A DNA stretch of 64,000 nucleotides, taken from positions 1,860,001-1,924,000 of the forward strand of contig NZ_CP029397.2 of NCBI RefSeq assembly GCF_001704615.3, read 5' to 3'. The translations under genes were made by a program, and so were the position numbers. How positions within the stretch are numbered: the stretch's first letter is position 1; the number at the start of each line of letters is the position of its first letter. This DNA comes from Acinetobacter defluvii (GTDB lineage Bacteria > Pseudomonadota > Gammaproteobacteria > Pseudomonadales > Moraxellaceae). Under the pieces are notes generated by a model. The model was not told where the DNA came from. It ran no database searches and saw only the letters and a program-made list of their open reading frames with translations. Positions 43,785 through 46,517 of the stretch are shown here, one piece after another.

Positions 43785-44732
43785 TTAAAATGGTGCCAAA
43801 CTTCGAGCATATACAGTGACTTGATTATTTTTTCGCATCAAATAACTGCTCATTTGACGGTTACGCTGACTTAATGCCACATCGATTTCAGCTTTGAAAT
43901 AATTACTCCGTACATCAAAAGCTTTTTCTGCAATCGCTTTATTTGCAGGTTCTATCGACTTAAATAAATCGGTCACTAACAAATCCTGCACATTATTAAA
44001 ATTTTCCATTTTTTCAAGTTTTTGTTTTTGTAAGATTGCCACTTGCGCAACATCGACTTTTGGATCAAGTGCAGCGAGTAGTAATGCTGGTGCAGTATTT
44101 ATATTAATTTTGGTAGAAACATCAGGCAGTGCAGACACATAAGGCTCTATTAGATCGTATTTTCCACCTTCAAAACCACGCACTAGTTTTAATTCTTCCA
44201 CACTAAAAAATGGACGATTTGCTGCAGAATATGGCGGCTGCAAACCATTATAATAATTACTTTCTGCGCCCATCGCCCCCATTGGAATATCATCCTGATC
44301 TTGCCAGTCAATCACTGCTTGACTGATCTCTGCTGGCAAACCTACACGTACTAAAATACGCTCAAAATAGGCTTTATTTTCCTCATCCACTTTTCCATCT
44401 GATGTGAATAAGCTATTTAAATTAAATTTTCCAGACTCATCTTTGAGTGTACCCGAGATAAATCCACCTTCAACAGGAAAAGCAGGCATTGGTTTTGCCC
44501 AAACTTCTTGTAAATTGTCTGTATTGGGGCTGTTTTGTGTATCTTGAATAAGAAGTTCTGAGAAAAAAGCTTCTGCACTTTTTGCATAATTTAAAGCTTG
44601 ATTCTGACGCATCAAAACTGCGGTGTTTTCATTGGTAGCGTACTGGCGTTTTGCAATACTTGCAGCAAGAATGGTAGCCAAAGCCACCATCACCAAGATG
44701 GTAATTAATGCGATCCCTTTTTGCTGCTTCAT
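43785..44732 (-). CDS. gspK: Type II secretion minor pseudopilin GspK
   Basis: A 315-residue minor pseudopilin that caps the tip of the type II secretion pseudopilus. The prepilin site is MKQQKG|IALITILVMVAL, lacking Glu5 as is usual for GspK. The large globular domain (e.g. DWQDQDDIPMG, FFSVEELKLVRGF) is typical. It is the last gene of the gspH-I-J-K run and starts 21 bases after the gspJ stop. Confidence 0.93.
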   Translation of the reverse strand: MKQQKGIALITILVMVALATILAASIAKRQYATNENTAVLMRQNQALNYAKSAEAFFSELLIQDTQNSPNTDNLQEVWAKPMPAFPVEGGFISGTLKDESGKFNLNSLFTSDGKVDEENKAYFERILVRVGLPAEISQAVIDWQDQDDIPMGAMGAESNYYNGLQPPYSAANRPFFSVEELKLVRGFEGGKYDLIEPYVSALPDVSTKININTAPALLLAALDPKVDVAQVAILQKQKLEKMENFNNVQDLLVTDLFKSIEPANKAIAEKAFDVRSNYFKAEIDVALSQRNRQMSSYLMRKNNQVTVYARSLAPF

Positions 44733-44753: not shown

Positions 44754-45386
44754 TTATGGGGAATTATTACCATTATTTTGCTCACGCAAAAATTCAGTAT
44801 TTAATAAACTAAAAATCCATTCATACTCCACATCATGAATCATAACTTTGATCTTGATGCCACGTGGTAACTGACGCTCATTAAAGGCATTTTCATCCGG
44901 CCAACGATCCCCCTCATTTGGATTAAGCACACTGATTTGGTATTGATCCACATCACTCAGCAATACACTAGATAAAGGCTGTGCCGCAGCAGATAAATTT
45001 AAGTTACTGTATTTTAAACGATATAGCTTTTTATCCTGTACATTATAAACATATTCAATGCGCTCAAAACTGGCAATACCTTGCTTCAAAGGATCAGTCA
45101 TGCCTGTTTTACTAAAACTCATTTTTTGATTTTCAAGTTGTAGCGCAGGTAAAATCTGTTGCCCTAGACTGCCAGTCACAGGAATCGTCTGTAAAGTATC
45201 ACGTTGAATTTGCTGATAGGCTTGTTGTAATTGATCAAGATTTTGTTCATGCATTGCATTACGATCTTTGACTTTGCTCAAATAATCAAAAATTTTCCAC
45301 CCCAATGCCGCCAAAACAGCAAAGATTGCAATAGCAACCATGAGTTCAATCAGTGTAAATCCTTTTATTTTAGTCTTATTCGACAT
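44754..45386 (-). CDS. gspJ: Type II secretion minor pseudopilin GspJ
   Basis: About 210 residues. The prepilin site is MSNKTKIKG|FTLIELMVAIAIF with Glu at +5. The body (LRYSNLNL-like segments and a final EWIFSLLN) fits GspJ. ATG 45386 is preferred; a GTG at 45395 would add three residues. GspH, I, J and K assemble the pseudopilus tip complex. Confidence 0.92.
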   Translation of the reverse strand: MSNKTKIKGFTLIELMVAIAIFAVLAALGWKIFDYLSKVKDRNAMHEQNLDQLQQAYQQIQRDTLQTIPVTGSLGQQILPALQLENQKMSFSKTGMTDPLKQGIASFERIEYVYNVQDKKLYRLKYSNLNLSAAAQPLSSVLLSDVDQYQISVLNPNEGDRWPDENAFNERQLPRGIKIKVMIHDVEYEWIFSLLNTEFLREQNNGNNSP

Positions 45387-45403: not shown

Positions 45404-45961
45404 TCACTGTACATTTTTTTGTGGATAATTAAAAAACACAACATTGGTAATGCCTGCTTCCACTTTATTAGTGTCAGGATTATATAAACTTATTTGTATA
45501 TCAATTTTTTTAATATCTGGACTAATCGTATTTTCAGCTTTTTTATCGACTTGCCACATTTCACCTTGCGAGGAGATTTGCTCAGACTGTGTTCCTGTCA
45601 GTTGCTCTTGATTAATTTCCATCAATGCTACTTGATTTTGCGCTATAAATTGCGCTTTCGTTCTTAAAATGGAGTTTGCAGTAGACTGAGTATATTGCAT
45701 TGCAACTTTGGTCAGTGCCATCGCAGCTACAGCAAAGATTGCCAGTGCCACGACCACTTCGATTAAAGTAAATCCTGAGCGAGGAATAGCAAAGTAACCC
45801 TTTGCCTGAGCACAAGATGAGAAATTATGTTTCGAGTAGTTCACATTGGTATTCGATCTTGCTGTAAGATCAAAAGCTCTGCTTGAAGATAAAGAATAAG
45901 CAGGACAATGCTTTATCCGAGTACAAGATGAGCAAGTGCGTATCGTGTCTTTATTCTTCAT
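45404..45961 (-). CDS. gspI: Type II secretion minor pseudopilin GspI with 63-residue leader
   Basis: 185 residues. The pseudopilin part from SG|FTLIEVVVALAIFAV onward is ordinary GspI. Ahead of it the leader is 63 residues, where 6-15 is usual; residues 5-62 look like an inserted segment (separate entry). The start ATG 45961 is well supported: GGGGAAAG lies six bases upstream and the gene overlaps the gspH end by 11 bases. A GTG at residue 40 would shorten the leader to 24 residues but has no ribosome-binding site. Whether the prepilin peptidase processes this leader is unknown. Confidence 0.85.
   Translation of the reverse strand: MKNKDTIRTCSSCTRIKHCPAYSLSSSRAFDLTARSNTNVNYSKHNFSSCAQAKGYFAIPRSGFTLIEVVVALAIFAVAAMALTKVAMQYTQSTANSILRTKAQFIAQNQVALMEINQEQLTGTQSEQISSQGEMWQVDKKAENTISPDIKKIDIQISLYNPDTNKVEAGITNVVFFNYPQKNVQ
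45776..45949. repeat. Hairpin-rich in-frame insertion-like segment in the gspI leader
   Basis: 174 bp between the MKNK start codons and the conserved prepilin cleavage site. It contains two perfect hairpins, GCAAAG / CTTTGC (45789-45805) and GATCTT / AAGATC (45855-45871). It also has imperfect direct repeats of about 25 bp around CTCATCTTGT on the minus strand, near each end, which translate to SSC(T/A)xxK. The length is a multiple of three with no stop. Its insertion origin is inferred. Confidence 0.6.
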
Positions 45962-46517
45962 CTGTGACTTTCCCCAAGTAATCCAAATCAATCAAATCTC
46001 CAATTGGCTTTTGATCATAATACATTTGAATTTTGACTGGTTTGGCTTCACCATTGCCAAACCAAATCATTTTTGGGGCATTATTTCCCAACAAGTCTGC
46101 ATTATTGGCATTTTGATAACGATGCTCTTGGCTTTGCACTGTAAATGAAATACGTTCAGGCAAACTACGAAAATCAAAATTTGGTACATCTTTCCACGGT
46201 TTTTGTTCGATTACTCTTAAACTTTTATCTGCACTTTCAGTATAAGGTTGATATTGCACCAACTTATAGCGAAATGGTGCAACATCAGTTGCGGGTAAGA
46301 TATCTAGTGCGTATACATGTGCTTGATCATTGGCATCCCGATTAATTTTCTTTAGATCAAGCAGTAAAAACTCTCGTGCTTGTAATGCCTTACGATGATC
46401 CACTCCATCGATATTTAATACGATCAAGGATGCCATAATACTAATAATTACAATGACCACCATCAATTCAATCAAGGTAAAACCTTTTTGAAGGGTAACT
46501 GATGATGGCGTATTCAT
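45951..46517 (-). CDS. gspH: Type II secretion minor pseudopilin GspH
   Basis: A 188-residue minor pseudopilin with leader MNTPSSVTLQKG|FTLIELMVVIVI and Glu5. The C-terminal domain contains IWFGNGEAKPVKIQMYY, fitting GspH. It is the first pseudopilin gene of the run, seven bases after a TetR gene, and overlaps gspI by 11 bases. Confidence 0.9.
   Translation of the reverse strand: MNTPSSVTLQKGFTLIELMVVIVIISIMASLIVLNIDGVDHRKALQAREFLLLDLKKINRDANDQAHVYALDILPATDVAPFRYKLVQYQPYTESADKSLRVIEQKPWKDVPNFDFRSLPERISFTVQSQEHRYQNANNADLLGNNAPKMIWFGNGEAKPVKIQMYYDQKPIGDLIDLDYLGKVTDEE

Follow-up and report, generated by a model that had tools for sequence, protein, structure and literature searches.

Short palindromic repeats in the leaders of Acinetobacter prepilins

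A family of short palindromic repeats of Moraxellaceae is dispersed and tandemly duplicated in Acinetobacter, where its copies form arrays in the leaders of six kinds of prepilins. These arrays lie in the sense orientation, almost always in frame and directly against the codon of the cleavage-site glycine, and they give leaders of very variable length to near-constant mature proteins. We consider it probable (roughly 0.8) that a REP-like element inserts at the boundaries of genes and gene products, and that prepilin leaders are its main harbour inside genes, the leader being cut off. If this is true, a cleaved leader peptide harbours mobile DNA within secretion and pilus genes in many species of one genus. 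There would then exist a natural series of prepilins differing mainly in the length of the leader (up to 125 residues) and carrying a near-constant mature protein, which would make the tolerance of prepilin targeting and processing for long leaders directly testable. The arrays may also explain why the start sites of these prepilin genes are annotated differently, and the results describe a Moraxellaceae repeat family with a marked boundary preference. Our search of the open-access literature, which covered titles and the starts of abstracts, found no report of repeats in Acinetobacter prepilin leaders; the accessible text of PMC8811193 mentions neither leader nor repeat. Within that literature, the Acinetobacter family in this form, its recurrence in six prepilin kinds at one cleaved segment, and the contrast between a variable leader and a near-constant mature protein are new.

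The gspI leader and its repeat unit

The window, i.e. the whole stretch of 64,000 nucleotides that was analysed, spans 1860001-1924000 of contig C9 in the Acinetobacter genome G000 and carries gspH, gspI, gspJ and gspK, all on the minus strand and all assigned with NCBIfam, gspH scoring below its family cut-off. The features of this region are the following.

43785..44732, minus strand: gspK (NF037980, 285.6 bits against a cut-off of 130)
44754..45386, minus strand: gspJ, with a short leader here (TIGR01711, 72.2 bits against a cut-off of 64.85)
45404..45961, minus strand: gspI, minor pseudopilin of the type II secretion system (T2SS), 185 aa, ATG at 45961 (TIGR01707)
45773..45961, minus strand: prepilin leader of GspI, 63 residues, from the ATG to the codon of the cleavage-site Gly (sequence; pLDDT below 50 for residues 1-60)
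45776..45949, minus strand: in-frame insert of 174 bp, about three repeat units (sequence and profile searches; array-free orthologues)
45777..45837, minus strand: 3' unit, a full copy of the 61-bp repeat with both hairpins; A and the Gly codon GGA come next (R1 E 9.1e-14; R2 E 2.3e-11)
45789..45805, minus strand: perfect hairpin GCAAAG-ggtta-CTTTGC, hairpin 2 of the 3' unit (sequence)
45853..45887, minus strand: middle partial unit, profile positions 3-37, containing the hairpin at 45871-45855 (weak: nhmmer E 0.0049 in the loci searched)
45855..45871, minus strand: perfect hairpin GATCTT-acagc-AAGATC (sequence)
45888..45943, minus strand: 5' unit, decayed, beginning soon after MKNK (weak: R1 19.1 bits, E 0.48; nhmmer positions 15-56, E 1.5e-5)
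45951..46517, minus strand: gspH, whose stop overlaps the start region of gspI (TIGR01708 is the best family with 61.6 bits, its cut-off being 80)

GspI is identified by TIGR01707 (58.9 bits against a curated cut-off of 44.35, NCBIfam) over a domain of residues 63-158 that begins at the cleavage-site glycine. Its gene starts at the ATG at 45961-45959 (minus strand), with GGGGAAAG upstream, and overlaps the gspH stop codon at 45953-45951. MKNK (45961-45950) is followed by 174 nucleotides free of stops, i.e. 58 codons (45949-45776), then by Gly63 (GGA, 45775-45773) and FTLIEVVVAL. The original prediction of this start, of 58 extra residues before FTLIEVVVAL and of a 174-bp segment that is in frame and stop-free agrees with the sequence. 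The open leader of 63 residues, Gly63 included, is thereby confirmed as real; those of its neighbours GspH and GspJ have 12 and 9 residues, Gly counted. In an AlphaFold2 model of GspI (26 sequences, mean pLDDT 67, pTM 0.44), the pseudopilin helix and four strands are present, and the leader has no predicted structure, with pLDDT below 50 for residues 1-60.

The two perfect hairpins already noticed in the segment are found at 45871-45855 and 45805-45789, and the imperfect direct repeats correspond to a 38-nt pair, 74% identical and 111 nt apart (45911-45948 and 45800-45837). CTCATCTTGT has two exact occurrences in the 64-kb window, both within the gspI leader segment. The notion of one 174-bp element had to be abandoned: iterated profile searches over related loci gave a model of a 61-bp unit, and the segment resolves into about three such units, a good one at 45837-45777 and two decayed ones with weak matches. 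The good unit belongs to the training alignment of the R1 model, which finds it with E 9.1e-14 in a search of the whole genome; the R2 model, built from non-prepilin copies only, still finds it with E 2.3e-11.

The 61-bp consensus of the unit consists of ACTC, hairpin 1, TCrTCTTGCGCTCGG, hairpin 2 and ATCCTCGCTC, and is followed by A. The hairpins are unequal, with stems of 5 and 7 bp and 3-nt loops. Pairing holds in 92.5% of cells among 31 copies, against 40-57% (at most 56.5%) in slid versions, and none of 500 shuffles of the same copies reaches their 81 doubly changed cells or their covariation score. Among 24 non-prepilin copies (20 distinct), 97.6% of cells are paired. Two other counts did not exceed the shuffles, namely further pair types in either set (327 and 398 of 500 as high) and doubly changed pairs in the first set, A1 (119 of 500 as high). 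In these alignments, covariation supports the two-hairpin structure of the unit. Imperfect palindromes in arrays could point to an attC-type site of integrons, which have core sites and an integrase, to CRISPR or to a known Rfam RNA element, an idea that we find extremely improbable: Rfam returned no match over the unit, with one sub-threshold match elsewhere in five loci and only 23S, 5S and tRNA in four loci.

The expectation that the genome would contain other copies failed with a plain sequence query and succeeded only with the structure model. The 185-nt gspI stretch found no convincing second copy in its own genome (best E 0.6), and its 19-nt matches at seven places were put down to chance. 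With R1, five further units at three loci were found besides gspI (E at most 4.9e-4): two on contig C9 at 2666883-2667012, in the spacer between ORFs of 100 and 95 aa, two directly upstream of the tRNA-Lys genes near 3032330 and 3032563, and one at 400352-400411, in the N-terminus of GluQRS. A weak unit lies at 2745054 of the same contig (E 0.05). The unit is present in 104 of 119 Acinetobacter genomes (E at most 0.01), and a sample of Moraxellaceae gave matches in 56 of 119 genomes and 6 of 16 genera. Other genera of the family have up to 30 matches to related units per genome (G124, G127, G141, G150 and others). None of 30 prepilin loci fetched from other Moraxellaceae, out of 103 matches in 10 genomes of three genera, has a unit.

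Arrays in prepilin leaders

Among 146 mapped matches (of the 150 listed for the genus, four G021 copies being left out), 47 precede a prepilin motif in its frame and on its strand and none lies antisense, as found with a model partly trained on leader copies. We also searched 12 genomes, our own and eleven picked for many units, with a prepilin-free model. There, 40 of the 150 units listed (177 in all) are followed within 400 nt by an N-methyl motif of the same strand, against 0.11 expected under uniform placement, a share that is biased upwards because ten of the eleven picked genomes had already shown leader units. These 40 units sit at 29 of the 150 prepilin matches listed (177 in all), and none was found on the opposite strand.

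The fetched loci include 184 upstream regions of prepilins recognised by their motif, a non-random sample in which orthologues are not independent. An array extends to the cleavage site in 76 of them, distributed over GspI (27), GspG (18), GspJ (18), GspH (6), FimU/T-like (4) and PilW-like (3) proteins. The names GspI and GspJ in the window, and GspG in one case, are backed by NCBIfam; FimU/T and PilW are names given from motif and gene order, for which NCBIfam confirms the prepilin domain only. The GspI leader was rightly singled out as a site, but it is one of six prepilin kinds affected. Similarly, the view that a dispersed palindromic repeat is inserted in frame between start and cleavage site is supported, although for arrays of units and not for a single 174-bp element. 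All 170 units of the 76 arrays are in sense orientation and none is antisense; the gene frame is free of stops over 75 arrays, the other two frames over 7 and 18. The junction at the cleavage-site Gly codon is TCA|GG in 76 of 76 (70 CTCA, 6 TTCA); at least 9 of the 108 prepilins lacking such an array also have TCA|GG, as counted among the 25 commonest contexts. The single frame exception is a gspI array (L051, genome G086) in a gene that is also disrupted in its body. The gspI of that genome (L051/L209/L226) has frame breaks in both array and body, being either a pseudogene or an assembly error.

Stop codons explain part of the orientation bias, because sense frames of the unit are open about twice as often as antisense ones (159 against 75 of 258): in 86 non-prepilin units, the three sense frames are open in 65, 26 and 68 cases and the antisense frames in 11, 57 and 7. 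In our reading, the unit has two open sense frames, and leaders make use of both. The idea that unit spacing in leaders is divisible by three turned out to be wrong, as 96 spacings fall 44, 43 and 9 times at 2, 1 and 0 modulo 3.

The frame bears on the possibility that arrays are untranslated spacers, that a GTG, TTG or ATT immediately upstream of the cleavage site serves as the start codon, and that the long leader is an annotation artefact. There is indeed a GTG at residue 40 of gspI, and a database entry 99% identical to GspI (P0004) begins at residue 59, with leader MPRSG. Moreover, REPs at annotated N-termini are often judged extragenic, according to the accessible text of PMC3733652. Yet with a start at the GTG of residue 40 or later, arrays would be free to lose frame, and 75 of 76 keep it. 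Array-free GspI mostly uses the same ATG in a similar upstream context, with a leader of 5-7 residues (MK(S/N)K-GFTL or similar, typically MKSKGFTL), and in the FimU/T-like genes of L128 and L137 the ATG stands where the array begins and has a GGAGG-type site before it. We thus regard an artefact of annotation as very unlikely and a start at this GTG as disfavoured; the conserved frame suggests that the whole leader is translated.

Comparison of gspI across Acinetobacter, which the original prediction had called for, shows that the presence of the array varies. Among 42 distinct GspI leaders in the fetched loci, 31 exceed 20 aa and 27 have a recognisable unit, and the 11 short ones have 4-6 residues before Gly. 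Four leaders longer than 20 aa show no recognisable unit and are perhaps decayed arrays. Short leaders, together with copies elsewhere in 104 of 119 genomes, argue against the possibility that related GspI proteins are all equally long and that the repeat has no other copies. In the GspG genes of L278 and L277, mature DNA is 96.6% identical and the 40 nt before the ATG are identical, and there are 64 and 16 residues before Gly, respectively. The nearest pairs with and without array that we compared are 81% identical for GspI and 84% for GspJ. A target-site duplication, which together with terminal inverted repeats of a partner IS marks a MITE, was not seen between array-bearing and array-free leaders, which are too diverged to exclude one. 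Dispersal and these differences in presence suggest, at the sequence level, that the repeat is mobile.

One might instead imagine a single ancient insertion in one pilin gene that gene conversion copied to the others, with no repeated insertion, since leader units share one orientation and junction and gspH, gspI and gspJ are adjacent. This is quite unlikely in our view, because the mature parts appear to share little past the short cleavage motif, the repeat is found at many non-pilin loci, and presence differs both in the close GspG pair and in the more distant GspI and GspJ pairs.

Leader length varies over near-constant proteins. The best 120 GspI proteins have leaders of 5-125 residues, Gly counted, although some of the short ones look like alternative start annotations, and leaders of 62, 76, 91 and 122 residues occur within clusters whose mature GspI is at least 98.5% identical to the first member. 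With 11 overlapping pairs added up, leaders have a pN/pS of 0.57 and mature parts one of 0.082. At synonymous sites, leaders have diverged less than the mature parts in 9 of 10 comparable pairs (one pair is saturated, L106/L131 goes in the opposite direction, and the comparison includes GspJ and GspG leaders of close species). Hence, the leader is not simply free, and repeat homogenisation or nucleotide-level constraint could account for its low synonymous divergence. Read from the first in-frame ATG (84 leaders), leaders longer than 25 aa have a mean net charge of +7.7, with no negative one among them, and shorter leaders average +2.3; the basic charge of long leaders fits the positive-inside rule.

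These patterns raise the question of whether leader repeats are selected, either because their hairpins tune translation or because a long basic leader aids targeting or slows processing. The slower synonymous sites of leaders, the recurrence in six prepilin kinds and the neutral or basic charge of leaders above 25 aa are in favour of such a role. However, near-identical mature GspI proteins have leaders of 62-122 residues, other species manage with 4-6 residues before Gly, GspI proteins labelled A. baumannii (P0104, P0111) have a length of just 126 aa, and the same repeat is found at unrelated gene ends and in stable-RNA spacers. Selection for the repeats thus seems unlikely to us.

Copies at gene ends and next to stable RNA genes

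Outside prepilins, 51 of 98 units give the stop codon and the last residues to an ORF of at least 100 aa on the opposite strand. The tails supplied are -PERG, -HERG, -DERG and -PEQ (loci L105, L110, L133, L147, L143, L091 and L114), and RuvB, TrmD, ClpS and CysG are among the ten named neighbouring or host ORFs. The 3' neighbours of 85 distinct non-prepilin unit ends, one further end being masked, are most often AGG (52), then ATG (10) and ATC (8). Other units adjoin stable RNA genes. All five units found with their 3' end near a tRNA gene stop a single base, the A, short of the mature tRNA, three times at the 5' end of tRNA-Lys and twice at the CCA end of tRNA-Ile, and probably represent two orthologous loci.

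L082:1501-1557, L085:1501-1574 (C9:3032330-3032619), L202, L164 and L165: units flush with tRNA genes

Units in the 23S-5S rRNA spacer, checked in L190 and L204 (G014), are not flush. L190 and L191 are two of six copies listed for G021.

GluQRS led us to reject a restriction of in-gene insertion to prepilins. In our own genome (L083:1501-1583, C9 from 400352 onward), a unit makes up the in-frame, sense N-terminus of this protein (R1 E 4.0e-6; 404.8 bits for GluQRS against a cut-off of 256) and ends as TCA|GGT right before GRFAPSPTG, which we take to be a conserved motif of GluQRS. The cleaved leader, first proposed as a safe site for an element inside a gene, is therefore not the sole in-gene site. 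Like that of gspI, the ATG of GluQRS overlaps the preceding ORF at its end. Another unit lies antisense in the middle of an open 424-aa ORF (L208:771-2045), for which NCBIfam gives no family match. Counting it, mechanical ORFs of at least 100 aa contain 21 of 99 non-prepilin units, and the 20 further ones leave the frequency of other insertions within genes uncertain.

How could these observations be brought together? One might speculate that the element inserts flush with the boundary of a functional product, to be cut out by host processing or left as a harmless tail, and is thus silenced by RNA or protein maturation. Its contact with the cleavage Gly of six prepilin kinds, with the first conserved residues of GluQRS and, one base away, with mature tRNA ends would fit this. 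This generalisation is possible but doubtful, and less probable because GluQRS is not a cleaved protein. We prefer the reading of a REP-like element inserting at gene and product boundaries with leaders as its main in-gene harbour. The repeat family occurs dispersed and in tandem in Acinetobacter, many copies end genes or adjoin stable-RNA genes, and the in-gene copies found are concentrated in N-terminal tails, chiefly prepilin leaders. According to the accessible text of PMC10191384, prepilin leaders lie in the cytoplasm, are hydrophilic, differ in length and are cleaved behind a Gly or Ala. A basic, stop-free insert before the cleavage Gly would thus leave the mature subunit unchanged, because the segment before this Gly is presumably cut off by the prepilin peptidase. 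The TCA end of the repeat abuts GG, and copies at other sites most often have GG as their 3' neighbour too; where the leader is short, the GGN codon of Gly is usually the GG available, which would lead to insertion there and in one orientation. If the TCA end prefers GG beside it, the junction at the Gly codon would be explained; it counts against such a preference that no more than 52 of 85 distinct non-prepilin units are followed by GG. Repeated insertion, and gain and loss of units, would then make the leader the fastest changing part of the gene.

Known repeats and long-leader prepilins

MITEAba12 is likewise small, non-autonomous and at home in Acinetobacter, with one report from a Moraxella genome, and the accessible text of PMC6382973 gives it a length of 111-114 bp, ISAba12-related inverted ends and a 9-bp target duplication. 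We rejected it as a candidate, the present 61-bp unit showing none of its reported ends by eye.

As described in the accessible text of PMC3733652, REPs and REPINs (GTAG and CGTC) are also short, mostly intergenic palindromes, often flush with gene ends to which they supply the stop; intragenic REPs are known, and CGTC families have no known transposase. The main text of the same article gives 0 occurrences for Acinetobacter, Psychrobacter and Moraxella. In contrast to REPs and REPINs, the Acinetobacter unit has two unequal hairpins with 3-nt loops in 61 bp, and its own genome has no Y1/RAYT match. GTAG REPs have a GTAG foot and a single hairpin of 20-40 bp, whereas the 61-bp unit has two hairpins and no GTAG foot in the A1/A2 consensus; in a few copies, GTAG lies within the hairpin 1 stem. 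A GTAG REP accompanied by its RAYT is not found either, the Y1 transposase domain PF01797 having no match in our own genome and being present in 22 of 119 genomes of the genus, and we dropped the link of the unit to these transposases for this reason. CGTC REPs have a CGTC end tag, stems of 8-9 bp and loops of 4-5 nt; in the unit, CGTC follows hairpin 1 in A2 and is internal, and with its stems of 5 and 7 bp and loops of 3 nt the unit falls outside this class.

Long-leader type IV prepilins (T4bP, Streptococcus sanguinis) also vary in leader length, and the accessible text of PMC10191384 does not attribute this length to mobile repeats.

Rickettsia palindromic elements (RPE) decorate unrelated proteins and remain in the product. 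The in-gene copies that we found in Acinetobacter are concentrated in one cleaved segment, which sets them apart from RPE as these are described. The likeness lies in the in-frame insertion into coding genes, seen here in 75 of 76 arrays: in RPE too, a palindromic insert is in frame within genes and sometimes N-terminal, according to the accessible text of PMC3733652. By this analogy, RPE are the conceptual precedent for the repeats in prepilin leaders.
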